Of a stretch of 64,000 nt of DNA, positions 11,739-40,620 are shown piece by piece. The notes under the pieces are model-generated. The model was not told where the DNA came from. It saw nothing but the letters and a program-made list of their open reading frames with translations, and ran no database searches. The stretch comes from Sanguibacter gelidistatuariae (lineage in GTDB: Bacteria; Actinomycetota; Actinomycetes; Actinomycetales; Cellulomonadaceae), in contig NZ_FMYH01000003.1 of NCBI RefSeq assembly GCF_900096585.1, forward strand, positions 124,001 through 188,000, given 5' to 3'. Positions within the stretch are counted from its first letter, which is position 1, and every line of letters begins with the position of its first letter. A program made the translations under genes and the position numbers.

Positions 11739-11742
11739 CGGC

Positions 11743-12162: not shown

Positions 12163-12192
12163 GGTGTGCTCCTGACTGTGCGTGGTGTCTGG

Positions 12193-12198
12193 ATCATA
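12193..12198 (-). promoter_or_regulatory. -10 box TATGAT for the S4/NUDIX operon
   Basis: On the minus strand TATGAT (plus-strand ATCATA) lies about 30 nt before the GTG at 12162. It is near-consensus; no clear -35 is seen. Confidence 0.5.
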
Positions 12199-12267
12199 CA
12201 ATCGCTGCGGGCGCGCCAGCGCGTTCGCCCTGCCAGCACTTGTAGCCTGTGCCCTGCACCGTCCGTG

Positions 12268-17730: not shown

Positions 17731-18251
17731 GCGCCGACGAGACCGGGCCGAGCGCCGACCGCGCGGGCGATCCAGGCCTCCTGACGACTGTCGTGTCCGC
17801 GCTCTATGAGTCCGGCTGGGCCCTCGACGTCGACTGGGACCTCGAGACCTTCGACGTGCTTCCGCGCGACGGCGAGGGTGAGCCGCTGCTCGGCGTCGTC
17901 ATGTCCCACAGCCGGGCGGTCGCGTTCTACCGGGTGCACCCCGAGCACCTCCCGGTCGGAGCCCGTGCCGCGGTTGCGGCCTTCGTCACCCGCCAGAACA
18001 CCCTGCTGGTCACGTCGGCCTTCGAGCTGAACCTGGACACGGGTAACCTGTCGCTGCGATCCGGATTCGCCTTCCCCGACATGGAGCTTGATCTCCCGGT
18101 CGTGCAGGCAATCTTGGACAGGCTCGTCTGCGAGGTCGAGGCCGTCCATGAGCGCACTCAGCCGGAGCTCGAGTCAGTGATCGCACGCGCCATCCGCGTC
18201 GGCGCGACGCCGACCGCAGACGATCCGCCCACGCCAGAGGACCACGCATGA
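17727..18251 (+). CDS. YbjN-fold/type III-chaperone-like small protein
   Basis: This acidic 174-residue protein begins inside the stop of the DUF4157 gene (ATGA). Its pattern (LLTTVVSALYESGW, then VEVDWDLET-like strands, AAVAAFVTRQN, and NLDTGNLSLRSGF) resembles the YbjN family, which shares the fold of type III secretion chaperones. The inferred role is to hold the preceding 1096-residue protein before loading. This rests on fold-like sequence pattern and gene coupling, not on a specific motif. Confidence 0.55.
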   Translation: MSADETGPSADRAGDPGLLTTVVSALYESGWALDVDWDLETFDVLPRDGEGEPLLGVVMSHSRAVAFYRVHPEHLPVGARAAVAAFVTRQNTLLVTSAFELNLDTGNLSLRSGFAFPDMELDLPVVQAILDRLVCEVEAVHERTQPELESVIARAIRVGATPTADDPPTPEDHA

Positions 18252-18736
18252 CTTTGTTCCACCCAGCTTCGCGGCCGGCACGCGGAGCGATCCTGCTCGC
18301 CGCCGCCACCCTGCTGCTCACCGCCGGCTGCTCGGGCTCCGACGACGACGCGACCAAGGTCTCGATCTTCGACCTCGAGGTCGGCGACTGCGTCCGTGCC
18401 GCGGACGAGGTCTCCGCCGAGGTCGAGACGGTCGAGCGGGTCGGCTGCGAGACCGGCCACGAGCTTGAGCTCTACTCCGAGGTGGCCTTCACGACGGGCA
18501 CGGGGGAGGCCGGTGCCTTCCCGGGCGACGCCGCGCTCGTGACCTTCGCCGACGGCATGTGCGCAGAGGGCTTCGAGGACTACGTCGGCGTCGACTACCG
18601 CGACTCCGCGCTGTACTTCACCTACCTGCTGCCCTCCGCGCGCGGCTGGGACCAGGGCCCAGACACGAGCGTGCTGTGCTTCGTGACAACCACCGGCGAG
18701 CAGCTCACCGCCTCTGTGCGGGGAACCGCGACGTAG
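18248..18736 (+). CDS. Lipoprotein with a septum-formation-like domain
   Basis: The 162-residue protein has a lipoprotein signal peptide ending LLLTAGC (lipid-modified Cys at about 28), a Ser/Asp linker and a domain with four further cysteines (GDCV, GCETGHE, MCAEGF, VLCF). The GDCV...GHE pattern matches the Septum_form/DUF4190-associated extracellular domain of actinobacteria. It should be anchored on the outer face of the membrane. Its start overlaps the previous stop (ATGA), placing it inside the eCIS operon. The role there is unknown. Confidence 0.7.
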   Translation: MTLFHPASRPARGAILLAAATLLLTAGCSGSDDDATKVSIFDLEVGDCVRAADEVSAEVETVERVGCETGHELELYSEVAFTTGTGEAGAFPGDAALVTFADGMCAEGFEDYVGVDYRDSALYFTYLLPSARGWDQGPDTSVLCFVTTTGEQLTASVRGTAT

Positions 18737-18857
18737 CGCCCGCCCGATCGTCCTGCCCGACGCCGCGCGGCCAGCCCCGCGGGCCCGGCGCCCCGCCCGC
18801 ACTCTCCCGCACCCGACAGCCCCACACCCCGACAGCCCCACAGACAAGGACACGACC

Positions 18858-19250
18858 ATGGGACAGCCCTCAGCCATCACCGGAGGCCAGCTGTTGTGCT
18901 CCTTCGGCATGGCGCCGTCGGCCTTGGTCGTGCTCCCCATGAACCGGGTGATGATCGAGAAGCGCGCCGCGGCCAACATCATGGACATGAAGCCGATCAT
19001 CAACATCCCGCCCTTCGGGATGTGCATGTCGATGGCGAACCCCACGGTGGCCGCCGCGACCGCGGCCGCCCTCGGGGTGCTCGTGCCGATGCCCTGTGTC
19101 CCTGCGACGGTCGCGCCGTGGGCGCCCGGGGCACCCAAGACGCTGATCGCCAAGGCCCCTGCGCTCACCCAGGGGAGCACGTGCATGTGCGCCTACGGCG
19201 GCGTCATCCAGATCCTCATGCCGGGCGCCGTCCAGACGACCGCCGGCTGA
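18858..19250 (+). CDS. DUF4280/PAAR-like spike-tip protein
   Basis: The 130-residue protein has the DUF4280 pattern: GGQLLCSFGMAPSAL near the N-terminus, IINIPPFGMCMSMANPTVA, MPCVPATVAPWAPG, and a C-terminal GSTCMCAYGGVIQIL. The Cys/Gly-rich short strands are typical of PAAR-like proteins that sharpen the spike of contractile injection systems (Pvc10 position). It probably caps the VgrG-like spike encoded at 34403-36187. A 121-bp gap precedes it. Confidence 0.8.
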   Translation: MGQPSAITGGQLLCSFGMAPSALVVLPMNRVMIEKRAAANIMDMKPIINIPPFGMCMSMANPTVAAATAAALGVLVPMPCVPATVAPWAPGAPKTLIAKAPALTQGSTCMCAYGGVIQILMPGAVQTTAG

Positions 19251-19260
19251 TCGATGAACT

Positions 19261-19305
19261 TCGGTAGCGATTACCGATGCCCCCCGACCGCCAGATCCCT
19301 AGCCT
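19261..19305 (+). promoter_or_regulatory. Palindrome plus -10 box upstream of the eCIS cap gene
   Basis: TCGGTAGCGATTACCGA (19261-19277) is a perfect inverted repeat of TCGGTA around GCGAT. A TAGCCT -10-like box at 19300-19305 follows after 22 nt. Nearly the same palindrome and spacing occur upstream of the sheath gene (43469-43514, other strand). Inferred: an activator site abutting the -35 region of a second promoter serving the rightward eCIS operon. Confidence 0.55.
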
Positions 19306-19360
19306 TGACTGCGTGCACCCTGTTCGAGGTCACGTGGGGTGACCAGAAGGTGAGGGTGAC

Positions 19361-20026
19361 ATGCTGATCCCGGCTGTCGAGGACGCGCTCGAGCTCTATC
19401 TGCGCCGTACCCTCCCGCTGACCGACGACATCGGCGACATCTCCTTCGACCCGCCGTCGGGCACCTGGTCGGCGCAGGTCAACCGGATCACCGTCAACGC
19501 GTTCCTCTACGCCGTCGCCCGTAGCTCCCAGCCGCCGCGGTCCTCCGCGCCGCGCGCTGCAGCAGACGGCACCATCGAGCGCCGAGCGCCGCTGCCCCTC
19601 GTCCAGTTCAGCTACCTCGTGAGCGCCTGGGCCGGAAGCGTGCGCGACGAGCACCAGCTTCTCGGCGAGGTGCTGACCCGGCTGCTCGCGATCCAGGTGC
19701 TGCCCGAGTGGGCCGTGGAGACCGAGCTCAGCTCGTCGATCCAGGTTGCCCTGGCCACCGACGAGATGAACCGGCCACGCGACCTGTGGGGCGCGCTCGG
19801 CGGCGGTCTCAAGGCCTCCTTCACGCTGCTCGTCACGGTCGCCTCGGACGCCTATGACTGGGAGACGGCGTCGACGTCTGTCGCCGAGCTCAGCGCCCGA
19901 ACCTCCGCGAAACCGCGCACCGAGCCGGCGGGCGCCCAGGCGTGGGGCACCGACACCCCGAAGCCGACCAGCTCCCAGACCCCGGACGCCCAGCCGCCCC
20001 CGGAGTCCGCGGCGAGCGGCCGATGA
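19361..20026 (+). CDS. DUF4255 tail-terminator/cap protein (Pvc16/Afp16-like)
   Basis: The 221-residue protein begins IPAVEDALELYLR and continues with VNAFLYAVARSS and PLPLVQFSYLVSAWAG, the N-terminal DUF4255 pattern of Pvc16 proteins that cap the distal end of the tube and sheath. Residues about 170-221 are a disordered Pro/Ser/Thr tail. ATG 19361 follows a GAGGGTGAC stretch. Its stop overlaps the start of the next gene (ATGA). Confidence 0.85.
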   Translation: MLIPAVEDALELYLRRTLPLTDDIGDISFDPPSGTWSAQVNRITVNAFLYAVARSSQPPRSSAPRAAADGTIERRAPLPLVQFSYLVSAWAGSVRDEHQLLGEVLTRLLAIQVLPEWAVETELSSSIQVALATDEMNRPRDLWGALGGGLKASFTLLVTVASDAYDWETASTSVAELSARTSAKPRTEPAGAQAWGTDTPKPTSSQTPDAQPPPESAASGR

Positions 20027-22227
20027 GGATCCTCAGCACCGTCGCACTCCTGGAGGTCTCACCCGGAGAGTCCGTCGACCTCGTCCTCGACGTGGTCAAC
20101 ACCGAGCCGGTGATCGAGGGCGTCACCGCTCGGGTCATCGGCATGCCCGCGACGATGGTGCGGGCGCAGCCCGCCTCCCTCGCGCTCTTCCCCGACGCCC
20201 AGGGTGAGATCACCCTGACCTTCGCCGTCCCCGGAACCTTCCCGGCGGGCCGCCACCCGTTGACCATCGAGGTCTGCGGCAGCACCCCGGCCGCCCGTCC
20301 GGTCCACCACGACGTCGAGCTGGTCGTCGCGGCTCGCCCGCGGATGGTGCTGCGCGCCGCGCCGAGCATGATTCGCGCGCGCAAGCGCGGGACCTTCCGC
20401 GTAGAGACCGTCAACCGCGGGAACGTCCCCCTCGACGTGGCCCTGCGTGCCCGCGACTCAGACCGCAGCCTCAACACCACGATCACCCCGTCGGCATTGA
20501 CCGTCGCGCCGGGGGAGGCGATCGTCTCCACGATCGTGGCGACCGGCCCTCGGCACGTCTTCGGCTCCGACCTCGACCGGCCGCTCAAGGTCGAGGCGAC
20601 CACGAGCGACGTCGAGGACTCGATCTCCCTCATGCTCCGACAGCGCCCGCTGATCAGCCGCGGGCTGCTCACGGTCGCGATCCTCGTGGGGATACTCGTG
20701 GTGTGGGCTGCGATCTTCCTGTTCGGCATCCGCAACGTGCTGGGGTCCGACCCGGTGACCAAGGTCGCCCCGGCGTCGTTCTTCGCGGCCTCGGCGGCCT
20801 CCGGGACCGCCGGCGCCTCGCCAGCCGGCGCGCTGTCCAAGGACGGCGTCGTCGAGGCTGGAGTGGGTGGCACCCTGACCGGCACGGTCACCGCCCAGAG
20901 CGACCTGGCCGGCGTCGGGCTGATCACGGTCGACGCCCTTCGGATGAGCCGCACCGGGATGGTCGTGGTCTCCTCCGCCGCGACCCAGTCGGATGGCACC
21001 TTCACGATCGCCGGCCTGTTCCCCGGCCGGTACTACCTGCGGATCGGCGCCGAGGGATACGACACGCTGTGGTACCCCGCCACGCCCACCGAGACCGGCG
21101 CAACGACCGTGCGCGCTCGCGCGCAAGAGGTCAGCGACCCAGCCTCCATGGTCGTCACGGGCCACCCCGCGTCGCTGTCCGGGACCGTCGAGGTCGGCGA
21201 CGTGCTGACCCCCGTCGTCACCACGGTCGTGGCCAGGCCCGCCTGGTCCGGGGCCGACGAGACACTCGAGTACACGACCGAAGCCACCGGCGACGGCACC
21301 TACACCCTCGCGGACCTGCCCGCACCGGGGACCTACGAGCTGACCTTCACCGCCGAGGGCTACCAGCCCGCGACCGCGCGCGAGTCGCTCGTGGGCGGGC
21401 AGTCGCGTTTTGTCAGCGACGTCAGGCTCGGCTCGACCCCGGGGCAGATCAGCGGGATGGTGACCGACGGTGTCTCCCCGCTCGGCGGGGTCGTGGTCTC
21501 CACAACCTTGGACGGCCGCGACATCACCGTGGGCACACCCACCCTCGGGGTCGTGGGCTCCTTCGTCATCCCTGGCCTGACCACTCCGGGCACCTATGTC
21601 GTGACCTTCGCCAAGGAGGGCTTCGGCGACAAGACGGTCGTCGTCGACCTCACCGCAGGCCAGTCCCGCGGCGACCTGGTCGTCTCGATGGCCGACGGCG
21701 TGGGCACGCTCACCGGACGGCTGGTCGACGGCGCAGGCAAGGGGCTGGGCGGGGCCGCGATCAGCGTGGGCGGCGGCACGACGTCGACCACCGCGACGAC
21801 GTTGACCAGCGGGGATGTCGGCGCCTTCACGATCGCCGGACTCGCCTCGCCCGGCTCCTACACTCTCACCTTCACCCTGTCCGGGTACCAGCCGCAGAGC
21901 GTCCCGGTCGATCTCGCCGCCGGCGAGGCGGCCGCGCCGATCAGGGTCACGATGACGGCCGCCCTCGGCTCGATCACCGGTCAGGTCACCACGGACCGAC
22001 AACCTGTCCTGGGCACCGACGTCGTGATCACCAACGGCGCGCAGTCCTGGACCACGGTCACCAGCAGCGAAGCCGGGTCCGCAGGGATATACACGCTCAG
22101 CGGGCTCGCCCCCGGCACGTACACCGTCACGGTCTCCCTCGGCGGCATGGTCCGAGCCACCGGACTAGCCACCGTCGCGGCCGGCGCGAGCACGACCCGC
22201 AACCTCGAGACGACGGGGGCGAGCTGA
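20023..22227 (+). CDS. eCIS-linked single-pass membrane protein A: Ig-like N-terminus, 5 regulatory-like repeats
   Basis: The 734-residue protein has no N-terminal signal peptide. Residues 1-205 look like two Ig-like beta-sandwich domains, a single transmembrane helix lies at about 214-236 (preceded by Arg213), then an Ala/Ser/Gly linker, then at least five carboxypeptidase-regulatory-like repeats from about residue 285. Each repeat starts GxxxGxV and ends PGxYxLxxxxxGY. By charge the N-terminal domains face the cytosol and the repeats face outward. It is the first of three paralogous genes in tandem inside the eCIS operon. A docking or anchoring role is inference. Confidence 0.7.
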   Translation: MRILSTVALLEVSPGESVDLVLDVVNTEPVIEGVTARVIGMPATMVRAQPASLALFPDAQGEITLTFAVPGTFPAGRHPLTIEVCGSTPAARPVHHDVELVVAARPRMVLRAAPSMIRARKRGTFRVETVNRGNVPLDVALRARDSDRSLNTTITPSALTVAPGEAIVSTIVATGPRHVFGSDLDRPLKVEATTSDVEDSISLMLRQRPLISRGLLTVAILVGILVVWAAIFLFGIRNVLGSDPVTKVAPASFFAASAASGTAGASPAGALSKDGVVEAGVGGTLTGTVTAQSDLAGVGLITVDALRMSRTGMVVVSSAATQSDGTFTIAGLFPGRYYLRIGAEGYDTLWYPATPTETGATTVRARAQEVSDPASMVVTGHPASLSGTVEVGDVLTPVVTTVVARPAWSGADETLEYTTEATGDGTYTLADLPAPGTYELTFTAEGYQPATARESLVGGQSRFVSDVRLGSTPGQISGMVTDGVSPLGGVVVSTTLDGRDITVGTPTLGVVGSFVIPGLTTPGTYVVTFAKEGFGDKTVVVDLTAGQSRGDLVVSMADGVGTLTGRLVDGAGKGLGGAAISVGGGTTSTTATTLTSGDVGAFTIAGLASPGSYTLTFTLSGYQPQSVPVDLAAGEAAAPIRVTMTAALGSITGQVTTDRQPVLGTDVVITNGAQSWTTVTSSEAGSAGIYTLSGLAPGTYTVTVSLGGMVRATGLATVAAGASTTRNLETTGAS

Positions 22228-24825
22228 GTGAGAGTCTCCATCTCCGACCGCCGCATCTCCGTCGTCCCCGGTGTGCCCACCTACCTCACCGTGACGATCA
22301 CGAACACCTCCGAGGTGATCGCCGGATACTCGATCCGCTTCCTGGGCGCCGACCCCGAGTGGGTCACCTTCGACACCCCGGACGCCCGCCTGTTCCCCGA
22401 CGCCAGCACCGACATCCGGGTCGGGCTGCGGCTGCCCGTCGGTGTGCCCGCCGGCGCTCGACGGATGGCCGTCCAGGTCCGCGAGCTGACCGCCGAGCAG
22501 GCAGTCGCGATCGAGGAGATTGTCGTCACGGTCCCCGACCAGCCCGGTCTCGGCCTGCGGCTCGACCCGTCGACGGTGACTGCCGGGCGCCGCGGCGAGT
22601 TCGGCGTCGTGATCGAGAACAACGGCAACACCGTCCTGGTCGGCGCGCTGCGCGGGGTGGATGCCGAGAAGAAGATCGACTTCGCCTTCACCCCCGGCCA
22701 GTTCCGTCTCGCGCCGGGGGAGACCCTCACCGGGCGCCTGCGCACCAAGGCCAAGCGCCCGGTCTTCGGCGCGCTCGCCGTGCGGCCCTTCGGCCTCTTC
22801 GTCGACGACGGCGTCGTGCGTGCCTCGGCGGAGCCCACGGCTCCGGCCGATCCGGCAGACCCGTTCGCCGCCGCGGGCCCAGCTGCTGAGGAGGCACCGA
22901 CCCCGGCGGCCGCCGGAGTCTTCATCCAGAAGCCGGTCTTCGCCCGTGGGCTGCTGTCGATGATCGGCCTGCTCCTCGCGGTGTCGGTGTTCGCGCTCGT
23001 GATCTCGGTCGCGCTGACGTCCGTGATGGCGCGGTCGGCCGCCGACCGGGACCTCGCTCTCCAGGTCGCCCAAGCGCGGTACGCCGCCACGACGGCGACC
23101 GGGACGGCGGGTTTCGCCGGGACAGTGCGGCTGCTCTCAGACGGGCAACCGATCGCGGGTGTCTCGGTCGAGGCCTTCGACGAGTCAGACACCTCCGTCG
23201 CGGTGGCCACAACCGCCTCAGACGACCAGGGCGTCTTTGCGATCGGCAACCTGCCCGCCGGGACGTACAAGATCCGGATGCTCGGAGCGGGGTTCTCCGA
23301 GGTCTGGTATCCGGCGGCGCTGACCGACGCCGACGCGCAGTCGCTCACCCTGAGCGCAGGTCAGCGGATGACCGGTTTGAGCGTGCTGCTTGGTGGGGTG
23401 CCGGCCACCATCTCCGGGACGGTCTTGGGCACGGACGTCGCCGGCGCGACGGTCCAGCTGCAGATTCCCCTGGACTCCCCGATCATGCAGGGCCTGGTGG
23501 GCGCGGGCGCGGGCGATGCCGCGCCAGAGAGCGGCAACGGCGCGATCGTGCGCACCGCTCCGGTCGGCGCGGACGGGACCTTCACCCTCGCCGTCGTGCC
23601 TTCGCCCGGGGTCTATGACCTCGTCGTGAGCAAGATGGGGTTCAGCACCCAGGTGCAGCGGGTCGATGTGGCCGCCGGTGAGAACCGGTCCGGGATCGAG
23701 ATCAGTCTCATCGAGGGAGACGGGTCCATCGCCGGAACTGTCACCTCCGCAGACGGCCCCGTCGCCGGGGCGACCGTGATCGCGAGCTTTGGGCAGAACG
23801 TGGCACAGACCGTCACCCTGACCCAGGACGCGATCGGCACCTTCACGCTGCGTGGGCTGCAGACGCCAGGAACGTTCACCGTCGTGGTCAGCGCACCTGG
23901 ATACGCGCCCGCGACCCTGAGCGTGAACCTCAGCGAGGGCCAGCAGCTGACGGGGATGTCCATCCCGCTCGGGAAGTCCTCAGGCACGCTCGCCGGCACG
24001 GTCACGACCCCGGCCGGGACATCGAGCGCTGGGGTCACAGTGACCGTGACCGGCGGCTCGGTCACCCGCCAGACCGTCACCCAGTCCGGCTCGTCGTCGG
24101 GTGCCTGGCGGATCAGCAACCTGCCGCTGCCTAGCACCTATACGGTGACATTCTCTCGGGCGGACCTGGAATCACAGGTCACGTCCGTGACGATCGACGC
24201 GAACGGCGTCGTGAGCACCGGCTCCTCCGCGGTGACGAGCATCGACGCGAGCATGCGCATGTCGACCGGGCGGATCACCGGCACCGTGACCCAGGCGGCC
24301 TACGGGACCGGGATCTCACAGCCCGCGGACAACGTCCAGGTGACCGCGACGTCGGGCGCTGCGACCTTCGCGGTCACGAGCGCGTCGACGCCCGAGGCCA
24401 ACCGGGGCAACTTCGTCCTGGAGAACCTGCCCCCGGGCACGTACACCGTGACATTCTCCCGCAAGGGCACCCGATCGATGTCCTCGATCGTGACTCTCGT
24501 CGCGGGCCAGCACATCGAGCTGACGCCCAACCTCGTCTCGCCGGCCTCGATCACCGGCCGCGTCATGATGGGGCCGGATGCGGTGTCGGGCATCGAGCTC
24601 CGGCTCTACACCGCGGAGCAGTTCGGGACGGCCGCGGCCCCCGTCATGGTCACCCGGTCCGATTCCGGCGGCGGGTACGCCTTCGAGGACGTGGACGCAC
24701 CAGCGCACTACATCATCGAGGTGCGATCAGCGGGCGGCTCGATCGCCCTGACCACCTCCTCCGCGATCACGATCGCACAGAGCGACTCAGCTAAGTACGA
24801 CTTCACCCTGGAGTCATTATCATGA
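22228..24825 (+). CDS. eCIS-linked single-pass membrane protein B: Ig-like N-terminus, 6 regulatory-like repeats
   Basis: The 865-residue paralogue of the preceding protein starts with GTG directly after its stop. Residues 1-195 are Ig-like (VSISDRRISVVPG...YLTVTITNTS), a Pro/Ala linker covers about 200-230, one transmembrane helix about 241-263, and about six GTV-type regulatory-like repeats fill the rest. The N-terminal pattern in both proteins (PGExVxxxVxVxNT) is that of cytosolic or secreted Ig folds rather than a signal sequence. The stop overlaps the next start. Confidence 0.7.
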   Translation: MRVSISDRRISVVPGVPTYLTVTITNTSEVIAGYSIRFLGADPEWVTFDTPDARLFPDASTDIRVGLRLPVGVPAGARRMAVQVRELTAEQAVAIEEIVVTVPDQPGLGLRLDPSTVTAGRRGEFGVVIENNGNTVLVGALRGVDAEKKIDFAFTPGQFRLAPGETLTGRLRTKAKRPVFGALAVRPFGLFVDDGVVRASAEPTAPADPADPFAAAGPAAEEAPTPAAAGVFIQKPVFARGLLSMIGLLLAVSVFALVISVALTSVMARSAADRDLALQVAQARYAATTATGTAGFAGTVRLLSDGQPIAGVSVEAFDESDTSVAVATTASDDQGVFAIGNLPAGTYKIRMLGAGFSEVWYPAALTDADAQSLTLSAGQRMTGLSVLLGGVPATISGTVLGTDVAGATVQLQIPLDSPIMQGLVGAGAGDAAPESGNGAIVRTAPVGADGTFTLAVVPSPGVYDLVVSKMGFSTQVQRVDVAAGENRSGIEISLIEGDGSIAGTVTSADGPVAGATVIASFGQNVAQTVTLTQDAIGTFTLRGLQTPGTFTVVVSAPGYAPATLSVNLSEGQQLTGMSIPLGKSSGTLAGTVTTPAGTSSAGVTVTVTGGSVTRQTVTQSGSSSGAWRISNLPLPSTYTVTFSRADLESQVTSVTIDANGVVSTGSSAVTSIDASMRMSTGRITGTVTQAAYGTGISQPADNVQVTATSGAATFAVTSASTPEANRGNFVLENLPPGTYTVTFSRKGTRSMSSIVTLVAGQHIELTPNLVSPASITGRVMMGPDAVSGIELRLYTAEQFGTAAAPVMVTRSDSGGGYAFEDVDAPAHYIIEVRSAGGSIALTTSSAITIAQSDSAKYDFTLESLS

Positions 24826-27800
24826 CCGAACAGATCTCGACGACCCTCCGCGGCAACGGTGCACCCAGCGTCCTCGTCGAGGACGATGTCCACGCGAGCG
24901 CGGGCAATGCTGCGATCATGCGGGTGCACGTCCGCAACCTCAGCGACGGACCTCGGGACCTGTCGGTCACGGTGATCGGGCTCGACGACGGCTGGGCCCC
25001 CGAGCCGGTCGTGCTGCGAGACATCCCGGCTGACATGACGGTGTCCGCGGAGGCGGCCCTGGTGCCTGTCGTGGGCGCTGTGCCGGGGGAGTACCCCTTC
25101 GTCGTCGTCGTCCAGGCGCTCCCGGTGGGTGGTTCCGTGGGGGTTGTCGCGGGCCAGGTGACCACGCTCGTCGAGGCGCACGTCACGGTCGATGCCCCGA
25201 GCCAGGTGCTGCTCACGGTCGAGCCGGCAGACTCGCGCATGCGGCTGCGCCGCAAGCTCGACGTGGTTCTCTCCAACACCGGGGGCGAGCCGGTTGAGGT
25301 GTCCCTGTCCACCCGGACCGACAAGGGGCTGCGCCTCGAGCTGAGCGACCGGGATCTTGTCGTTCCGGCGCGGACGACCATCCGGCTCACCGCCCGGGCG
25401 CGCAACCTCCGGCCCCAGTTCATGGGGCACCTCAACCGTCGCGCATTCTCCGTCGCGGCGGCCGGCAAACAGGCGCCCGCCCGGTTCTCCGGGACGATCA
25501 CCTCGCGCCCGCTGCTCAGCTCAGGGCTCATGCGGGTCATGTCGCTTCTGCTGGTCATGGCGTTGTGGGCGGGCGGCCTCGTGGTTGGCCTGCCGTGGCT
25601 GACCAACCGGATGACGGCTGAGCAGACGACGGCCGAGGAGACCACAGCGCCTGGCGCTGGGTCCGACCCCGGCGCCGCGGGCGATCCCGCCGACCCGAGC
25701 GATCCAGCCGGTGGCTCGGGAACAGATGGCTCAGGAACCGGTGGGACCGATCAGGTCGTGGACCCCACGATCCGGATCGGCGGCGTGGTGACCGCAACCG
25801 ACCCCTCCGGTGTCCACGTTCAGATCGCCCCGGCGAGCATCATCGCCGACTCCCAGGGCGGAGGCGGCGGCGCCGGAGGTCTTTCCAGCTCCGTCCCCGT
25901 CCCTCTGAGTGCGGTCCTGGCAGCCGGCCTGGCCGGCGAGAAGTCCGACGACGCGCCGCTGACCAAGACGTCCCCCAAGGGTGTGGCGATCGAGTCGACC
26001 ACCTCCGTCGCGACGACCCGTAGCACCTCGACAGGCGACGACGGCGCGTGGGCCTTCGCGGGGCTCTCGCCCAACCTCAACTACCTCGTCACCATCTCCA
26101 AGCCCGGCTACCAGACCGTGCGGCACGTCGTATCGGGGGCCGAAGCCGAGGCCGGCCTCGACGTTGAGCTTGTCGCCGGCGACGGACAACTCTCCGGCCG
26201 GGTCATGGGCCCCGACGGCGCTGGCGCGGGAGGCGTGGACATCGTCATCACCGACGGCACGACGACCGTGACGACGTCGACCAACACCACTGGATCGGTG
26301 GGCTCATGGTCCGTCGATGGGCTGTCCACTCCCAGCACCTACCTCGTGACCGCGCAGGGCAACGGGCTCGGCGCCCAGTCCCGCCTGGTGACGCTCTCCG
26401 CAGGCGCCTCCGCGACCGCGGACATGGCACTGAGCAACGGGGTGGCGAGCCTGTCCGGGATCGTGACCGGACCCGACTCCCTCGGCTTCGACTCCGGCGT
26501 CGGCGGGGCGACCGTGACTGCGAGCGATGGCGCGACGACACGCACCGCGTCGACCGTGACGAGCGGCCTCGTCGGGTCGTACACACTCGTCGATCTGCCC
26601 ATCCCCGGCACCTACGAGATCGCGGTCGCGGCCGACGGGTTCGCGACCCAGACGCTCCAGCTCACCCTCGACGCGGTCACCCCCACGGCGCGCCAGGACG
26701 TCGCGCTGCGCACCGCGAACGGCGCCGTCCAAGGACGGATCACCGACACGGCAGGGCAGGCGTTGACGAGCGCGGGAATCACCCTGCACAACGACGCCAA
26801 CACCTACAAGACCATGGTCACAGGTGATGGCTCCTTCCGACTCAACGGCATCGCACCGGGGGAGTACGTCGTCTCCGCCGCCCAGTTCGGTCACCTCACC
26901 GGCTATGCCACGGTGCGCGCGAGCGCGGGCTTCGCGACGATCGTCGACCTCGTGCTGACCGAGGTCGAGGGCGACGGCCTGGTCTCCACCTCGCGGATTC
27001 GTGGGCGCGTCGGCGACGCTCGGACCAACGGTCAGCTGGACTGCACGGGCCAGGCGGCTGGTGAGCAGTGCCTGGTCACCACCACGCTCACGGCTCAGAA
27101 CCTCGACGGGACGCAACGGCTGGTCTCGGTCACCTCGGACCCCAATACGGAGTACCTCATCCCGGCTGCAGGGGAGGTGGGCCTGCTGCCTGGGCTCTAC
27201 GTGCTGGAGATGTCTGCACCCGGGTACGAGGAGTCGACCGTCCGCGTGAGCGTGCCGATGGACACGACGGTGACTGCGGGCCAGGTCGCGCTCTACCCCT
27301 CGCCCTCGCTCACCGGGACGGTGATCGCCCGGGTCGGCAGCGTGCCCACAGGGACCTGCGTGATCGTCGTGCCAGCCGCCTCAAGCTTCCCCTCGGCCAC
27401 GTGTGCAGACGTCTCCGTGGGCACGACCTCGATCTGCAAGATCGCTGCCCCGGCGCAGTGCGGCCTCACCGGAGTCAACGGCGGCTACACCATCACGAAC
27501 ATCAAGAGCGGGAGCTACAAGGCCACCGTCCAGTCCGGTGACACGGAGTACGTGTTCACCGATGGGGAGAGCGCGATCTCGCTCGTGGCCGGCGACGTAC
27601 GCCGTTTTGATGCGGTCCTCAACCGCCTGCCCCGGATCTCGCTCACCACGATGATCAGCACGGGAGCATCCGCCCTCGTTCCGGCCGGGAGCGCGATCGT
27701 CAAGGCGATGCTGCTCAAGTCGGACGGTACGGAGGAGGAGGTGAAGCGCGGGACGGCGAGTGCTCAGGGCTTCGCTGAGCTCACCAGGCTGCCCGAGGGG

Positions 27801-30800
27801 AAGTACCGCTTCGATGTGGTCTCGGCTCCCGCCGACGGCAGCCTCGTCGGGAAGCTCGCGGGCGTCGTCCTCGCGTACAACCAAGAGCTGAGCTCGCAGC
27901 TCGTGCTGACGAGCGACGCCAAGGTCTTCCAAGGCCGGCTGGTGGCGTTGCCGGCCGCCAACGAGGTCGTCGGGATCGAGGACACGATGGTGACGGTGAC
28001 CGGTATCACCGGGTACAACGGAACGGTGCCGATCCGGACGAGCGTCGATGTCAAGACCAACTCGATCGGTGAATTCAAGACCCAGCGCACGACACCCGGT
28101 GTCGGGTATCTCCCGGTTGTGGCGGACACCGTCTCTGTCGCCTTCGCCGGCAATGACCTCTACCAGGCCGCGACGTTCCTGGACGTCCCGGTGGCTGCCA
28201 CGGTGACCCAGGTGGAGCTCCAGCCGGTGGGCATGGCATTCAAGGGATCGATCACGCTCGACGGTGCGGAGGTGAGCACGGCCAACCAGCTGGCCGGCGT
28301 GAGCTTCGAGATACTGAGCAGGCCCCCGGGCTCCGGTCCGGTGCTCATCAAGGCGATCGGGGCTCCCTTGACAAGCCTCACGGGACGTCTCGAGTGGTCC
28401 GACATGACCCAACCGCCGGACGCGACCGGTCCCGGTAACGCGCGGATGGCACGGCCCGGTCTCTACTCGATCCGGGCTAGCGCACCGGGATACGCCCCGG
28501 TCGAGACCACCTTCCGGCTGAAGCCCGGCGGGGTGCTCGAGGGTGACGACGTCACGACCGCCGTCTTCCCTACAGGCGAGCTCAAGCTGACCCTTTCCAA
28601 GTACGGCGAGCTGCGCGTGGCCACCGTCACCGACGTCTGCCCGGGACAAACGGATGTGACCGAGTGCGCGGTCCTGGACCCCGTGATCACCCTGCGCGGA
28701 CTGGGGGCGCCTCGTATCGGGACCGCGGAGCCGGGGAACAACTTCGTGGACTTCGGCGAGGTGCCTCCGGGCAAATACACAATCGGTGTCCAGGCGGCCG
28801 GATTTGAGGTGCCCTTCCCCGAGGGCAAGGTCACCGTGGACCCGGGGCAGACCGCCAACGGCACCCCGCGCAAGGTGGTGTTGCAGCGGCTCGGGTCGAT
28901 CGAGGGGACCGTGACGGCCGCGATCGGCAGCGGCGACCAGCAGCTCGCAGGCGTGCAGATCACCGCGGTCGGTCCCGGCGGGACATTCAAGGCGGTCACG
29001 GACGCGGTTGGCAAATACACGCTGGTCGGGACCATCCCGCAGCCAGGCCTGCTCGCCGGGTCCTGGACCGTCACGGCGGCCCTGACCGGCTATGAGTTCA
29101 CACCGGTTCCAGTGGCCGTCGCGAACGGTCTCCCCACGAATCTCCCCATCAAGATGACTTTGACCAAGGTCAATCTCCAGGTGAAGGTGGTGCAGTCGTT
29201 CGAGGACTCAGGCGGCATACCGGGGCTCAGCGTGCGGCTCGACAACGGAGGCGTTCCGCTGCAACCGGTCTGCGTGACGACTCCCACTGACCCGCGGTGC
29301 ACAGACCAGACGCCCGGGGTGTACTACTTCGACGGAGTGAACCCCGTCCAGTCCACCGTGCAGGTCTTGCCCAGCTCTGGTCACACGGGGGTGACGGTCG
29401 TGCTCACGCCAGTCCTGGGACAAAACCCGTGGCTCGTCACCGTCCCGCTGGTGAGCACGTCCAACACCGTGAGCGGCACGGTCCTGCAGCAGAACGGCGG
29501 AGCTGCTCCGGTCCCCCTGGGAGGGGCGGCGGTGACGCTGACGGGCCCAGTGCCGACGGCCCCGGTCACCACGCTGGCTGACGGACGCTTCACCTTCACC
29601 GGGCTCGCGGACGGGACCTATTCAGTCACATCGACGCTCACCGGCTACGGAGCGGTGACCCGGAACGTCGCCGTCGCGAACGGCCAGGTGGCCATGGTCG
29701 ACCTCGTGATGTTCCACGAGACGCGCCAGGTGAGCGTCGTCGTCTCCTCCGACACGGACATCACCGGTGCGCTCGTGGGCCTGAGCGCCGAGACTCCCGG
29801 CCTCAACCCGTCGTCTCTGGCCGCCCAACCGTTGGTGCGCGGCCCGGGCATCACGTACTTGACGGTCTTCAACCAGGTGCCTACGGGCAGCTGGACTGCG
29901 ACGATCACGGGAGCCGCGGGTCACCTGTGGAGCAAGACGATCGCGGTCCCCGTGTTGGTAGCACCGCCGGGCGACCCGAGCGCGGTGTCTGTCGCCGCCA
30001 CGATCTCCGAGGTGAAGGTTGTGCTCTCGGCGACGGCCGCCCCGGCGACCTTGACGGACCCGCTCGTCCTGAACGTGTCGGGAACGCCCACCGGTGGCTC
30101 CGCGATCGCGACGCTCGCCAGGTCCGTCCGGGCGGACCAGGGCACGGACACCTTCTTCCTGCTGGTCGGGAGCTATACCGTGACACCCGCGCCTGCGAGC
30201 GGGTGGCTGTCTGCCCCCGCGAGCATGGCGATCACCGCCGGGCAGCGGGAAGCAGTGGGCGTGTTCGGGCTCACCAGGCCTCCGATCGACACCGTGACCA
30301 CGGTGACGAGTGCGCCGGCGATTCTCACGGTGGGTGCGACCGCGAAGTTCACCATGAACGTGACGGCCGCGGGTGTCACGGGTGTCACGGGTGGTGTGAC
30401 GCTCACCCTCAACGGTCAGAGCGTCGGCGCCGGGACCTACCAGCTTGTCGATGGAACTGTCACGACGGGGGACATCACGGTCACCGAGGCTATGGTGACG
30501 CGACCCAGCACGGCGCTCAAGGCCGTGTACGCGGGCAGGCCGGCGAATGCCGGGTCGGCTGAGCTGAACGGGTCCGACAAAACCGTCTCGCTCTCGATAG
30601 CAAAGCTGGCGACGTCGGTGACCGCGTCTGCGGCTCCGGTGGTGCTGGGCACGCCATCCGTGCTGACCGCCGTCGTGGCTCCGCTGTCCGCGGGGACGCT
30701 CACCTTCTCAGGGGCAGGCCTGACGCCCGACTGCACGGTCCCCGTGTCTACCTCCGCGACGGTGACCTGTTCTCGCACCTTCGCAGCCGCAGGGGAGTAC

Positions 30801-30893
30801 TCGGTCACGGCGATATTCACCCCCACCGACGCGATCAAGTACGGGAGCTCGCTCCCGGTCACGTTCACGGTCACCGTGACCGCGGGTTCCTGA
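24822..30893 (+). CDS. eCIS-linked giant membrane protein C: Ig-like N-terminus, many regulatory-like repeats, Ig-like C-terminus
   Basis: At 2023 residues this is the largest gene in the window. It repeats the layout of proteins A and B: Ig-like domains at 1-225, transmembrane helix about 238-258, an acidic Gly/Asp/Ser-rich linker (about 265-320), then ten or more carboxypeptidase-regulatory/CnaB-like repeats, and finally two bacterial Ig-like domains (about 1820-2020). Fully extended, the outside part could reach far beyond the wall, as an adhesin or stalk would. No sortase motif or C-terminal anchor is present; the only membrane tether is the N-proximal helix. ATG 24822 overlaps the stop of gene B. 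A strong bidirectional hairpin follows. Confidence 0.7.
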   Translation: MTEQISTTLRGNGAPSVLVEDDVHASAGNAAIMRVHVRNLSDGPRDLSVTVIGLDDGWAPEPVVLRDIPADMTVSAEAALVPVVGAVPGEYPFVVVVQALPVGGSVGVVAGQVTTLVEAHVTVDAPSQVLLTVEPADSRMRLRRKLDVVLSNTGGEPVEVSLSTRTDKGLRLELSDRDLVVPARTTIRLTARARNLRPQFMGHLNRRAFSVAAAGKQAPARFSGTITSRPLLSSGLMRVMSLLLVMALWAGGLVVGLPWLTNRMTAEQTTAEETTAPGAGSDPGAAGDPADPSDPAGGSGTDGSGTGGTDQVVDPTIRIGGVVTATDPSGVHVQIAPASIIADSQGGGGGAGGLSSSVPVPLSAVLAAGLAGEKSDDAPLTKTSPKGVAIESTTSVATTRSTSTGDDGAWAFAGLSPNLNYLVTISKPGYQTVRHVVSGAEAEAGLDVELVAGDGQLSGRVMGPDGAGAGGVDIVITDGTTTVTTSTNTTGSVGSWSVDGLSTPSTYLVTAQGNGLGAQSRLVTLSAGASATADMALSNGVASLSGIVTGPDSLGFDSGVGGATVTASDGATTRTASTVTSGLVGSYTLVDLPIPGTYEIAVAADGFATQTLQLTLDAVTPTARQDVALRTANGAVQGRITDTAGQALTSAGITLHNDANTYKTMVTGDGSFRLNGIAPGEYVVSAAQFGHLTGYATVRASAGFATIVDLVLTEVEGDGLVSTSRIRGRVGDARTNGQLDCTGQAAGEQCLVTTTLTAQNLDGTQRLVSVTSDPNTEYLIPAAGEVGLLPGLYVLEMSAPGYEESTVRVSVPMDTTVTAGQVALYPSPSLTGTVIARVGSVPTGTCVIVVPAASSFPSATCADVSVGTTSICKIAAPAQCGLTGVNGGYTITNIKSGSYKATVQSGDTEYVFTDGESAISLVAGDVRRFDAVLNRLPRISLTTMISTGASALVPAGSAIVKAMLLKSDGTEEEVKRGTASAQGFAELTRLPEGKYRFDVVSAPADGSLVGKLAGVVLAYNQELSSQLVLTSDAKVFQGRLVALPAANEVVGIEDTMVTVTGITGYNGTVPIRTSVDVKTNSIGEFKTQRTTPGVGYLPVVADTVSVAFAGNDLYQAATFLDVPVAATVTQVELQPVGMAFKGSITLDGAEVSTANQLAGVSFEILSRPPGSGPVLIKAIGAPLTSLTGRLEWSDMTQPPDATGPGNARMARPGLYSIRASAPGYAPVETTFRLKPGGVLEGDDVTTAVFPTGELKLTLSKYGELRVATVTDVCPGQTDVTECAVLDPVITLRGLGAPRIGTAEPGNNFVDFGEVPPGKYTIGVQAAGFEVPFPEGKVTVDPGQTANGTPRKVVLQRLGSIEGTVTAAIGSGDQQLAGVQITAVGPGGTFKAVTDAVGKYTLVGTIPQPGLLAGSWTVTAALTGYEFTPVPVAVANGLPTNLPIKMTLTKVNLQVKVVQSFEDSGGIPGLSVRLDNGGVPLQPVCVTTPTDPRCTDQTPGVYYFDGVNPVQSTVQVLPSSGHTGVTVVLTPVLGQNPWLVTVPLVSTSNTVSGTVLQQNGGAAPVPLGGAAVTLTGPVPTAPVTTLADGRFTFTGLADGTYSVTSTLTGYGAVTRNVAVANGQVAMVDLVMFHETRQVSVVVSSDTDITGALVGLSAETPGLNPSSLAAQPLVRGPGITYLTVFNQVPTGSWTATITGAAGHLWSKTIAVPVLVAPPGDPSAVSVAATISEVKVVLSATAAPATLTDPLVLNVSGTPTGGSAIATLARSVRADQGTDTFFLLVGSYTVTPAPASGWLSAPASMAITAGQREAVGVFGLTRPPIDTVTTVTSAPAILTVGATAKFTMNVTAAGVTGVTGGVTLTLNGQSVGAGTYQLVDGTVTTGDITVTEAMVTRPSTALKAVYAGRPANAGSAELNGSDKTVSLSIAKLATSVTASAAPVVLGTPSVLTAVVAPLSAGTLTFSGAGLTPDCTVPVSTSATVTCSRTFAAAGEYSVTAIFTPTDAIKYGSSLPVTFTVTVTAGS

Positions 30894-30996: not shown

Positions 30997-31449
30997 TCAG
31001 CACGCGAGCTGCAGCACGACCACGACGAAGGTCGTCAGGGCCAGCGCAGCAGCCACGAGCACCCACCATCGGAAGCGCGGCGCTTCCTCGAGCGGGACGA
31101 CGGGCGTGGGCGGCGGCGGGGCCGGCACGGGCTGCGGAACCGGGGCGAGGACCGGCGGCGGGGGTGGCGTCATGGATCCCGCGCAGCGCAGGCACACCCA
31201 TGCGGTGGGCAGGTTGAGCTCACCGCAGGTCGGGCACGGCACGGAGTAGCTCACGCCCTTGCCCGACGTGCCGGGCAGGCGGCGCAGGGCGTCGCCGGAG
31301 TCGTCGTCGGCGCCGCGCACCGCGATCGCCGTCGACGACCAGAAGAGGGGGAAGTCGCAGGAGGGGCAGAAGTCGCTCGCGTCCCGCCGGCCGTTCATGA
31401 TGTCGCTGGGTGTCCCGCACTCGGGGCACGTCACGCTTGTGTACTGCAT
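30997..31449 (-). CDS. Double zinc-ribbon membrane protein at the end of the eCIS operon
   Basis: The 150-residue protein has four CxxC knuckles arranged as two ribbons: CPEC with CPSC (about 8-45) and CPTC with CLRC (about 72-92). A Pro-rich linker follows, then one transmembrane helix (about 124-146) close to the C-terminus, ending LQLAC. It lacks a signal peptide, so the ribbons should be cytosolic with a tail-anchor-like helix. ATG 31449 is 5 nt after the stop of the gpI-like gene, which makes it the last gene of the leftward operon. No function can be assigned beyond a possible membrane-side scaffold. Confidence 0.65.
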   Translation of the reverse strand: MQYTSVTCPECGTPSDIMNGRRDASDFCPSCDFPLFWSSTAIAVRGADDDSGDALRRLPGTSGKGVSYSVPCPTCGELNLPTAWVCLRCAGSMTPPPPPVLAPVPQPVPAPPPPTPVVPLEEAPRFRWWVLVAAALALTTFVVVVLQLAC

Positions 31450-31454: not shown

Positions 31455-32024
31455 TCAGGTCTCCGTGGGCGGTTGGGGGAGGGCGAGGTGCGCGCTGGGG
31501 TCGGCGGCCGGACGGGGCCAGATGAGCTTGTCGCCCACCCACAGCTCGGCGCGGACGTGGGCGGGTACCTCGTCGGCGACGAGCTTGGCGAAGGCCCGCT
31601 CCGTGAGGCTACCCGTCGAGTCGACCCGCATCACGACCCACGCCGTGTCGATCGGGCTCTCACCCTCGCGCCAGACACCGCCGCCCTCCTCGATCACGGC
31701 CGGCCCGCCGCTGAACAGCTCAAGCATCGACCGCAGCCCGAACGGCGTGCCGCGCCAGGCGAGGGTGCGCGCCGCCACGCGGAGAACCTCACGCTGCAGC
31801 TCCACGCTGCCCGCGCCGTCGACCGACTCCAGGCCGATCCAGCTCGCGAGCCACGGCAGCATCTGCGGCGGGGTGATCCGGGGGTCGGGCAGGTGCACCA
31901 GGTTGTCCGCGTGCGCCATGACGGTGTCCGCCTGAGCCTGGAACAGCTCGACGAAGCGCCGGAAGAAGCTCTCCTGGAGCATGGCCGGCGGGAGCTGGTT
32001 GACCAGCCAGTCTGAACGTCTCAT
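31455..32024 (-). CDS. Phage tail protein I-like baseplate protein (Pvc12 position)
   Basis: The 189-residue protein begins MRRSDWLVNQLPPAML and contains FFRRFVELFQAQADTVMAHADNL, then PWLASWIGLE and TLAWRGTPFGLRSMLELFSGG. These are hallmarks of the gpI/P2-like tail protein family placed beside gpJ in contractile tails, which helps build the baseplate wedge. The start at 32024 lies 10 nt beyond the stop of the baseplate J gene; a longer reading upstream would overlap that gene. Confidence 0.8.
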   Translation of the reverse strand: MRRSDWLVNQLPPAMLQESFFRRFVELFQAQADTVMAHADNLVHLPDPRITPPQMLPWLASWIGLESVDGAGSVELQREVLRVAARTLAWRGTPFGLRSMLELFSGGPAVIEEGGGVWREGESPIDTAWVVMRVDSTGSLTERAFAKLVADEVPAHVRAELWVGDKLIWPRPAADPSAHLALPQPPTET

Positions 32025-32034
32025 GGGAGGGCGA

Positions 32035-33984
32035 TCACCGAACCACGACGCGGTGGTTCGCGGACAGGAAGAGGGCATCGGCGGACAGCCGCAGCGTGTC
32101 CCGGCCGGCACCGATACGCGCCCCGTTGCGCAGGTCGTAGTCGAAGAGCTGCACCTCGTCGATGCGTTCGATGCCCTCGATCGGCTCGACGAGCTGGGCG
32201 ATCGCCGTGGCGGTCAGGTCCGTGTCGAAGACCCAACCGGTCCCGTCCGGGCCGCCGAAGAGCGGGTTGACGTAGCGGGTGATCGCCTCGAGCACCCGCT
32301 GCCGGATGAGCGGGGCCGAGCGTCCGGGCAGCGCGTGCAGCAGCACCGCGACGCTCACGCCTTGATAGAAGGGGGTACCGACCTCGATCGCGGCACCCAC
32401 GAGCCGGCGGGCCTCGAGCGCCTGGGTGATCGCGGTGACGAGCGGCGTCGACAGGGCGAAGTCGTCGATCGTGTGGTCGCGCGGGTCCTTGCGGACCTGG
32501 GGGACGACGAGCACCCTGACCGCTCCGGGGGCGCCGCCGCTGCGCGGCAGGCACGCCGCCCGGGCGACCTCGACCGAAGCCTCGTGCGTGATCCGCTCGT
32601 AGTCGCCCGCGGTGACCGCCCGCTCACCGGTGCGCAGCGTCAACGGACCGCGGACCTTGGCCTCCTCGATGCTCTCGGCGTCGACGCCGCCGCTCGCCGC
32701 GGCGAGGTTCGTGACGCTCGCGACGAAGGGCACGCTCGAGCGCAGCACGGTCAGGGTCTCCGCGCCTACGTTCCCGGCCGCGCCACCGCCGTAGCGGTAG
32801 CTGGTCACCTGGATCTGGGCGCCGTCGGGCGGCGTGGCACCGTGCTGGACGACGGTTCCGTCGGGGTAGCGCACGCTCGGACCGAACTGGACGTCCCCGG
32901 AGATCGAGTCCCACACGACGTGCCGGTCCTGCGGTCCGGAGGCGGAGAAGTCGGGCACCTCGGTCCAGGCAGTCGACTGGTCGTGCGTGGTGACGCGCAC
33001 CGCTTCCTCGTCGCGTCGCATGGCGACCGGCTTGTGGGTCACCGGGAAGACCTGGCTGGAGACGCCCGTGGACCGGCCGATGATCTCGGCCGCGGCCGCG
33101 GATGCGTGCTCGGCCGCGACGGTCACGCCGACGGCGGTGACCGTGAGCTCCTCGATCTGGGGAGAGGCCTGGTACGTGGGCTGGCCGGGCAGCGGCCGGG
33201 TGAGCCGGGCGCGCAACCAGTAGCCGGGCCTCCCACCGAGGGTGAGCACCTCGTGCTGGTCGGGGACCAGGAGCACGACGGCGCCGTCCCGGTTGAGCCC
33301 GCCGGTCGAGTCGGACTGCACCCGGGCCGGGATCCAGATCTCACCGGACCACACCTCCCACAGCAGCGGGGGGTTGCGCGGGTCCACGCCGATGCCCTCG
33401 GCGTGCGCGCGGACGGTGAGGTTGATCGCGAGGTTGGCCAGCGGAGTCGTGAAGCCGAAGTACGCGGCGTCGTTCTCGGCCAGCCCGGGCGTCGCGAAGC
33501 AGGTCAGGGACGTCCCGGGGTAGGTGAGCGCCTCCCAGCCGTCCGTGACGGCCTCGGATCCGGCCTGGGCGGTGTGCACCATGGTCAGGACCGGGGGCAC
33601 CACGACCGCCTCGGTCGTCGTGGTGAACACGACGCCGGCGACCTCGGTGGCCGCGAGGGTGGAGACCTCGGTGCCGGCAGGCACGCGGACCGGGGCGGTT
33701 GCCGGCCCGGAGAGCCAGAACGTGAGGATCGCGCGAGCCACGGACGGGGGGAACTGCTCGATCCCCACGAGGTTGAGGAAGTGGACGTAGAGCCGCTCGG
33801 GCACCTGGTTGACGCGGAACAGCACCATCTCGCTCATCCACGCGAAGAGCTCGATGAGCGCCACCCCGGGATCCGAGACGTTGTGGTTGGTCCACTCCGG
33901 GGTGAACCGGGGGATCAGCCTCTTGGTCTCGTCGACGATGTCCTGGAAGGAACGGTCGTCAAGGTTCGGTGCGGGAATGGGCAT
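32035..33984 (-). CDS. Baseplate J-like protein (Pvc11-like)
   Basis: The 649-residue protein starts MPIPAPNLDDRSFQDIVDET and carries HNVSDPGVALIELFAWMSEMVLFRVNQ, a segment typical of eCIS baseplate J proteins. A beta-rich middle follows, then the J core with SYRYGGGAAGNVG and GERAVTAGDYERI. It forms the wedge that joins the spike hub to the sheath. ATG 33984 overlaps the gp25 stop (ATGA). Confidence 0.88.
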   Translation of the reverse strand: MPIPAPNLDDRSFQDIVDETKRLIPRFTPEWTNHNVSDPGVALIELFAWMSEMVLFRVNQVPERLYVHFLNLVGIEQFPPSVARAILTFWLSGPATAPVRVPAGTEVSTLAATEVAGVVFTTTTEAVVVPPVLTMVHTAQAGSEAVTDGWEALTYPGTSLTCFATPGLAENDAAYFGFTTPLANLAINLTVRAHAEGIGVDPRNPPLLWEVWSGEIWIPARVQSDSTGGLNRDGAVVLLVPDQHEVLTLGGRPGYWLRARLTRPLPGQPTYQASPQIEELTVTAVGVTVAAEHASAAAAEIIGRSTGVSSQVFPVTHKPVAMRRDEEAVRVTTHDQSTAWTEVPDFSASGPQDRHVVWDSISGDVQFGPSVRYPDGTVVQHGATPPDGAQIQVTSYRYGGGAAGNVGAETLTVLRSSVPFVASVTNLAAASGGVDAESIEEAKVRGPLTLRTGERAVTAGDYERITHEASVEVARAACLPRSGGAPGAVRVLVVPQVRKDPRDHTIDDFALSTPLVTAITQALEARRLVGAAIEVGTPFYQGVSVAVLLHALPGRSAPLIRQRVLEAITRYVNPLFGGPDGTGWVFDTDLTATAIAQLVEPIEGIERIDEVQLFDYDLRNGARIGAGRDTLRLSADALFLSANHRVVVR

Positions 33985-34406
33985 CAGGAGTCCTCGCGAG
34001 GTATGACGTAGAAGGGGTACACCAGGTTGCGGCGGTCGTTGGTCGCCTTGACCCGGTAGGTGATCTCGATACGGACCAGCGACGAGTCCTTGGCGTCCTG
34101 GACAGGGCGCACGTCTTCGACCGCGATCCGCGGCTCCCACTGGGCGAGCGCGTCGCGGACCGCCTGGGAGATGAGCCCCAGGAGGTTCGCGTTGACCGGC
34201 TCGAAGAGCAGGTCCCAGATCCTGCAGCCGAACTGGGGGCGCATGAGCCGCTCACCAGGGGCGGTGAGCAGCACGACGTGGATCGAGTGGTCGAGGTCCT
34301 GCGCGCCGCTGGTCAGCGCGATCGAACCGGTGTGGTCCACGCTCATCGGCCAGCTGAAGCCGCGGCCGATGAACGAGGGGATGTCGGAAGAACCCTGGAC
34401 GGTCAA
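33984..34406 (-). CDS. gp25-like baseplate wedge protein (Pvc9-like)
   Basis: The 140-residue gp25/W-family protein contains FGCRIWDLLFEPVN, AVRDALAQWEPRIAVEDV and a C-terminal ITYRVKATN strand pair. It forms the sheath initiation wedge around the hub. No ATG or GTG fits ahead of the conserved part. The best start is TTG at 34406, which overlaps the stop of the spike gene and gives MTVQGSSDIPSFIG. It is coupled at both ends. Confidence 0.85.
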   Translation of the reverse strand: MTVQGSSDIPSFIGRGFSWPMSVDHTGSIALTSGAQDLDHSIHVVLLTAPGERLMRPQFGCRIWDLLFEPVNANLLGLISQAVRDALAQWEPRIAVEDVRPVQDAKDSSLVRIEITYRVKATNDRRNLVYPFYVIPREDS

Positions 34407-40456: not shown

Positions 40457-40616
40457 GGACGGCCTCCCAGGCGCGGTCGTTCAAGGACGAGACCGCACGG
40501 ATCATGCGGACCCTGTCGAGGTGCTCGAGGTCCATGAGGTCGTCGAGCGGCCAGTGCAGGTGGTACGCGAGATAGGCGATCTCCTGCCATAGCGCCTCCG
40601 CGGGATAACGAAGCAT
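40443..40616 (-). CDS. Small eCIS protein, DUF6760/Pvc6-like (57 aa)
   Basis: This 57-residue gene begins MLRYPAEALWQEIAYLAYHL and continues HWPLDDLMDLEHLDR. The pattern EE(I/V)A(Y/F)xAYxxHWPxxxxMxLEHxxR is that of the small protein found between tube genes in eCIS loci. ATG 40616 is 4 nt after the preceding gene's TAG. Its 3' end overlaps the tube 2 start by 14 nt. Confidence 0.8.
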   Translation of the reverse strand: MLRYPAEALWQEIAYLAYHLHWPLDDLMDLEHLDRVRMIRAVSSLNDRAWEAVRESI

Positions 40617-40620
40617 GGGC

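Follow-up and report, generated by a model that had tools for sequence, protein, structure and literature searches.

In Streptomyces coelicolor, contraction and function of the cytoplasmic contractile injection system (CIS) require CisA (SCO4242), a proposed membrane docking adaptor whose expression is toxic in E. coli (PMC12237407). The same species encodes Sco4256-4258, three proteins consisting of a head, a transmembrane (TM) helix and a tail, which have been described as putative CIS effectors (Casu 2023, PMC10066040; Vladimirov 2023, PMC10020575). Relatives of these proteins were reported in 90% of 105 Streptomyces IId loci (Vladimirov 2023, PMC10020575) and 47 of 94 CIS-positive strains were reported to have one or more (Casu 2023, PMC10066040), and about one third of the members of the family are described as carrying a lectin- or toxin-like C-terminal domain, which is thus not obligatory. 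Finally, a 2026 catalogue of eCIS fibres defines an eBAP4 group that includes carboxypeptidase-regulatory domains and an example from a Cellulomonas, which may or may not be a protein of the type described below (PMC12923769).

The window analysed here, that is, the whole stretch of 64,000 nucleotides (70% GC, from a genome of 4.04 Mb), contains an eCIS locus organised in two convergent blocks, one on each strand. The plus-strand block runs from an AAA ATPase (11692-14262) through an eCIS_core (DUF4157) protein, which is a separate effector candidate (14440-17730), a Septum_form protein that is a predicted lipoprotein by its lipobox-like motif (18248-18736), a DUF4280 protein (18858-19250) and a Pvc16_N cap or tail terminator (19361-20026) to the three genes that are the subject of this work, g1 (20023-22227), g2 (22228-24825) and g3 (24822-30893). 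The minus-strand block comprises the structural genes (32035-43470), namely the sheath, a 178-residue protein with no Pfam match, two gp19-type tubes, a 1045-residue protein, CIS_tube/LysM, Phage_base_V (VgrG-like) and baseplate J, and continues with a Tail_P2_I baseplate protein (31455-32111) and, adjoining it, a small zinc-ribbon protein (30997-31449, an inner ATG being chosen as its start). The 1045-residue protein (36846-39983, minus strand) lies beside the second tube gene and has no Pfam or PHROG match; its position resembles that of a large unnamed protein of one Streptomyces CIS locus. An ordinary tmRNA gene (7594-7961, plus strand) is also present in the window, beside smpB (6947-7483).

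The three open reading frames of 734, 865 and 2023 residues are present as the preliminary description had given them, g1 starting at the ATG at 20023 inside a listed frame of 761 residues. Their GC3 is coding-like (0.87-0.92) and, as read from the sequence, the genes are tightly packed: the start of g1 overlaps the stop of the cap gene in an ATGA, g2 starts immediately after the stop of g1, and g3 again overlaps the stop of g2 in an ATGA. The possibility that they are chance reading frames was rejected, given that the same three-gene layout is found in 46 loci that differ in g1. According to hydropathy, each protein has a single strong hydrophobic helix, as had been proposed, at residues ~215-233, ~245-263 and ~239-257, respectively, which separates an N-terminal head (residues 1 to ~210 in g1) from tails of 501, 602 and 1766 residues. 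No further window before the helix reaches the hydropathy cut-off in g1 or g2; the head of g3 has one weak hydrophobic window above it (79-97, mean 1.76).

The Ig-like nature of the heads, also proposed earlier, is backed by a PDB search in which the head profile matches a segment of bacterial sialidases (E 8.5e-6) and by weak Pfam matches (FixG_C, NEW3, Cep192_D3), mostly below or near the cut-off. The tails belong to the CarboxypepD_reg type, with PF13620 scores of 147.5, 177.1 and 193.4 bits for g1, g2 and g3 against a curated cut-off of 32.3. The repeat counts of five and six proposed for g1 and g2 stand, and the ten or more claimed for g3 become seven when only the stretches that are individually significant in Pfam are counted, even though its 1766-residue tail would have room for more repeats than Pfam detects. 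The Ig-like domains expected at the end of the third protein correspond to Big_3_5 at its C-terminus. Other tail matches include SdrD_B and SpaA in Pfam and, for the g1 profile, SdrD, NOMO2 and carboxypeptidase D in the PDB; no toxin or enzyme family was found in the three tails by Pfam, which returned CarboxypepD_reg, Big_3_5 and similar folds only. For the three proteins, NCBIfam, PHROGs (from which g2 was left out) and PADLOC were uninformative.

Profile comparisons indicate that the heads are homologous to Streptomyces genes of CIS loci annotated as "hydrolytic protein" or "hydrolase". A profile of the three window heads found eight heads in seven loci outside the family of the window (E 7e-23 to 7e-31), three of which are named Streptomyces plasmids, and a reverse profile built from seven Streptomyces-type heads recovered g1 (2e-30), g2 (6e-30) and g3 (8e-15), the E-values in both directions being computed on the open frames of the compared loci. 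The head of g2 also matches a Streptomyces "hydrolytic protein" directly, at 1e-9 and over residues 10-188 only, and two Streptomyces homologues, one with each of these names, sit in CIS loci. By name, place and layout these genes would be members of the Sco4256 family, the link to Sco4256 itself running through its product name ("putative hydrolytic protein"), its place and its published description. The best head homologues found are CIS-locus proteins and not unrelated secreted ones. In one of the plasmids (L073, Streptomyces cadmiisoli plasmid NZ_CP030074.1), the Sco4256-like head gene (18004-19825) is directly followed by a PAAR gene, and the closest phage tail gene annotated within the stretch viewed is ~17 kb away.

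The three proteins thus share with the Sco4256 family the homologous N-terminal domain, the single TM helix after it (by hydropathy) and the linkage to a CIS; the lectin- or toxin-like C-terminal domain is absent from all three according to Pfam. The best explanation is that g1-g3 constitute a three-paralogue branch of this family, and the view that the design is new for an eCIS component has to be given up, since it was published for Sco4256-4258 in 2023. What is new here is an ancient version with three paralogues that form separate clades and have tails of nearly fixed length; the search of openly accessible journal articles turned up no repeat-tailed triad that is accompanied by a lipoprotein and a shortened CisA counterpart.

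The proposed integration of the genes into the eCIS operon was confirmed by two surveys, in which the counts and p-values take no account of shared ancestry, which inflates all the counts. Among 150 genomes of the family, the head profile matched in 33, strongly in 32, and a cap gene was present in 35; the cap occurs in all 32 genomes with a strong head, and 3 of the 35 cap genomes have no head. Among 394 genomes of the class, there was a head match at 1e-5 in 62, a strong one in 48 and a cap in 60; all 48 strong-head genomes carry the cap, and 12 of the 60 cap genomes have no strong head. The division into strong and weak matches in the class search was made post hoc, at a gap in the E-values from 1.1e-19 to 1.5e-13, and it set aside 14 weak genomes in that search (four of them cap-positive) and one in the family search. 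The 32 strong family genomes have at least three copies in 21 cases, two copies on separate contigs in one and one strong match in ten. Six family genomes have two cap genes each (G013, G020, G026, G078, G079 and G147), and in G020, G079 and G147 a triad accompanies one cap, while the second has a single head at a distance of 13-16 kb. Within the genome of the window, neither the g2 protein nor the head profile has a match away from this locus, so that a genome-wide paralogue family was rejected; the best named match of g2 is from Sanguibacter suarezii (82%).

Triads are present in five family codes, and the non-redundant set consists of 46 loci, each differing in g1. The three genes are in tandem on one strand in every one of them, and the cap is always present, directly upstream and on the same strand in 42. 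Within the limited flanks on which these synteny counts depend, Septum_form accompanies 30 of the 46 triads and DUF4280 31; when redundant loci are counted as well, 36 of 38 Septum_form entries show the lipobox-like motif, and at 1e-5 none of the one- or two-head loci compared has a Septum_form match. In the triad loci L040/L085 and L044, g2 or g3 is broken or read through in the assemblies (1171 residues for g2; 385 and 553 for g3).

A quick tree of 80 heads, with 22 triad loci, places g1, g2 and g3 each in one clade (SH-aLRT 99-100), which means that the triplication predates the split of these families; in the window, the heads of g2 and g3 are 21-29% identical to that of g1. The length of the tails is nearly fixed, at 491-549 residues for g1 (n=46; coefficient of variation 2.0%), 593-621 for g2 (n=45; 1.2%) and 1642-1896 for g3 (n=40; 3.4%). 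Contig-end genes and proteins of less than 400 residues were left out of the length and cysteine counts (among them L065, with no tail cysteine, and the broken g3 of L040, with one), as were three broken or read-through genes (g2 of L040, g3 of L044 and g3 of L053). The near-fixed lengths, together with median tail identities of 0.52, 0.56 and 0.38 (0.50, 0.48 and 0.42 for the heads), suggest that the tails are shared arrays of set length, probably folded, and not fast-varying tips.

The orientation of these proteins, for which heads in the cytosol and repeats outside had been predicted, can be approached from three sides, all of which agree. The first is the parity of cysteines: where cysteines are present, their number is even in 65 tails and odd in 2 (both of them g1 tails with a single cysteine), and even in 11 heads and odd in 33, while a comparison set made of the aligned parts of cytosolic CIS proteins gives 35 even and 56 odd, p-values for these contrasts being overstated by shared ancestry. 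An even number, never zero, was counted in each of the 40 g3 tails and in each of the 20 tails taken from one- or two-head loci, and the 12 cysteines in the g3 tail of the window are arranged as close pairs. The second is the listing of SCO4256 in a table of S. coelicolor glycoproteins obtained from lectin-enriched membranes, in an organism in which Pmt glycosylation is tied to Sec export; in that table 5 of 38 proteins are classed as "Other", one of them a ribosomal protein, so that the set may hold contaminants (PMC6593405). The third is the balance of Lys and Arg around the helix, which is clear for g1 (more before the helix in 17 of 20 and equal in 3) and weak for g2 (8 more, 11 equal, 1 fewer, of 20), g3 (11, 7 and 2, of 20) and single-head proteins (7, 5 and 1, of 13). 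The heads are therefore probably inside and the tails outside, mainly in view of the paired tail cysteines and the glycoprotein listing; nothing points to the opposite topology.

The hallmarks of CisA (two zinc ribbons before a TM helix, in a gene next to baseplate genes) are absent from g1-g3 and present in the zinc-ribbon gene that lies beyond g3 on the opposite strand. Of the 42 triad loci whose flanks leave 1.5 kb or more of space, 33 have such a gene in this position, in 26 cases no further than 1.5 kb away, and in the other nine none was found. The 33 proteins, located by Tail_P2_I, carry two zinc ribbons and then a helix that closes the chain or nearly does so: 31 of them continue for six residues or fewer after it, and for L077 and L078 the scan picked a proline-rich stretch 30 residues before the end as the helix. 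The conserved outer C-terminal domain of CisA (~150 residues) is thus absent from the window protein and its 32 counterparts. Among 11 one- or two-head loci examined, the protein with two ribbons and a helix extends for 154-164 residues past the helix in eight and for 187 in one (L066); in L123 and L073 the scan gave no zinc-ribbon protein, the annotated zinc-ribbon gene of L073 being below the scan criteria. The gene is next to Tail_P2_I in L118, L120, L121, L122, L126, L072 and L066, on the other strand in L124, and in L119 no Tail_P2_I was matched.

The homology of the triad zinc-ribbon proteins with CisA rests mostly on place and on the order of two ribbons plus helix: the HMMER profile of the former did not list the CisA-position protein of S. 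clavuligerus at E up to 10, and the probability of 99 from profile-profile alignment of the ribbon parts was obtained on CisA ribbons that had been cut out and joined, zinc ribbons being generic in any case. Next to Tail_P2_I, this protein is a likely docking adaptor that lacks the outer domain, and the co-occurrence of this lack with the long tails suggests that the latter may have taken over the sensing or the contact with the wall.

Taken together, these observations lead us to propose, with moderate confidence, that g1-g3 are the envelope part of a cytoplasmic CIS. The single helix would insert each protein with the head inside and the tail outside, the Ig-like heads would touch the particle, perhaps at the cap end or the baseplate (the coupling of the genes to the cap is only a hint as to which end they meet) and might in this way dock it, and the tails would form rods, built from about 5, 6 and perhaps 15-20 small beta domains, respectively, which would traverse the cell wall or sense it. 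The rods and the lipoprotein from the outside, and the zinc-ribbon CisA counterpart from the inside, would retain the particle at the membrane, or license it there, ahead of firing. Points against this proposal include the cap-positive genomes without a strong head, the weak charge signal of g2, g3 and the single-head proteins and the nine triad loci without the zinc-ribbon gene.

The rival that survives best, less likely in our estimation but backed by experiments in Streptomyces that have to be reckoned with, is that g1-g3 are effectors that travel in the lumen of the tube and are inserted into a membrane when the particle fires, with the tail acting as a toxin or binder. This follows the published view of Sco4256-4258, whose triple deletion leaves ~85% of tube lumens empty and phenocopies the loss of the CIS, and each of which is toxic when expressed in E. 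coli (Casu 2023, PMC10066040); in addition, Sco4256 was detected in all three particle purifications (Vladimirov 2023, PMC10020575), and a chain of small beta domains might be thin enough for a narrow tube. However, the empty tubes would fit an envelope module as well, since a membrane module without which loading fails would give the same outcome when lost, and toxicity in E. coli is not diagnostic, since CisA is toxic there too. The tails lack any toxin or enzyme family that Pfam recognises, their even cysteine parity points to an oxidising place, the locus has its own eCIS_core protein, and a size of 2023 residues and three paralogues of near-fixed length would be unusual for cargo. The envelope-docking module is thus favoured over injected cargo, its function being inferred.

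That the proteins are adhesins of the wall or surface which merely share the operon is improbable: the tails do resemble the repeats of surface proteins, as the SdrD_B, SpaA, SdrD and NOMO2 matches indicate, but strong heads are confined to cap-positive genomes, the gene order and the coupling to the cap are conserved, and the heads are about as conserved as the tails. No more can be said for tail-fibre equivalents that would remain on the particle as the crown does in the thylakoid CIS (eBAP4 class), because, although eBAP4 proteins associate with Ig-like and carboxypeptidase-regulatory domains, fibre genes are reported downstream of the baseplate genes in ~90% (PMC12923769), whereas g1-g3 follow the cap in 42 of 46 loci and converge on the baseplate block in the window, the crown chain 7b5h is absent from the head-profile matches at E up to 10 in a PDB set that may not include it, and the published extended S. 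coelicolor particle has no fibre-like component.

How a cytoplasmic CIS reaches its own membrane and fires there is a question to which, in the literature covered, only CisA has been tied. Should the Sco4256 family prove to be an envelope module instead of cargo, the published assignment of these proteins as effectors would need revisiting, and the triad with its shortened CisA counterpart would become a natural experiment in the exchange of outer parts. The listing of SCO4256 as a membrane glycoprotein also bears on its reading as injected cargo. The cysteine parity and the glycoprotein evidence make the topology directly testable in common laboratory strains.

Of the described systems, the closest is that of Sco4256-4258, with which g1-g3 share the homologous Ig-like N-terminal domain (compared on Streptomyces plasmid CIS loci), the single TM helix, a variable C-terminus, the linkage to a CIS and even the number of three genes in S. 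coelicolor. The tails differ in size, being 189-320 residues long in the three named Streptomyces loci (L071-L073) and 501-1766 in g1-g3, and in content, the published ones being partly ricin- or lectin-like and those of g1-g3 made of CarboxypepD_reg and Big domains. Moreover, the N-termini of Sco4256-4258 are highly similar according to Casu (2023), whereas the heads of g1, g2 and g3 are old separate clades, unlike also the two tandem heads of L115, which are nearly identical.

The eBAP4 proteins and the crown fibres of the thylakoid system have a comparable layout, an N-terminal domain of ~200 residues followed by Ig-like and regulatory-like domains (PMC12923769), and differ from g1-g3 in gene position and in the head-crown comparison given above. 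CisA resembles g1-g3 in being bitopic with the N-terminus inside, in its linkage to the CIS and in its proposed docking function, but it carries zinc ribbons in place of Ig-like heads, and its counterpart in the window is a separate gene without the outer domain.

A more doubtful extension of our proposal is that the locus encodes a dedicated trans-envelope complex of single-membrane bacteria, in which three ancient bitopic paralogues with outer rods of fixed length, a lipoprotein and a CisA counterpart that lost its outer domain as the rods took over would form a functional parallel of the membrane complex of the T6SS. In that system, TssJLM, a lipoprotein plus membrane proteins, anchors the contractile machine, and the likeness to the locus described here, which also combines a predicted lipoprotein with membrane proteins, is one of functional analogy only.
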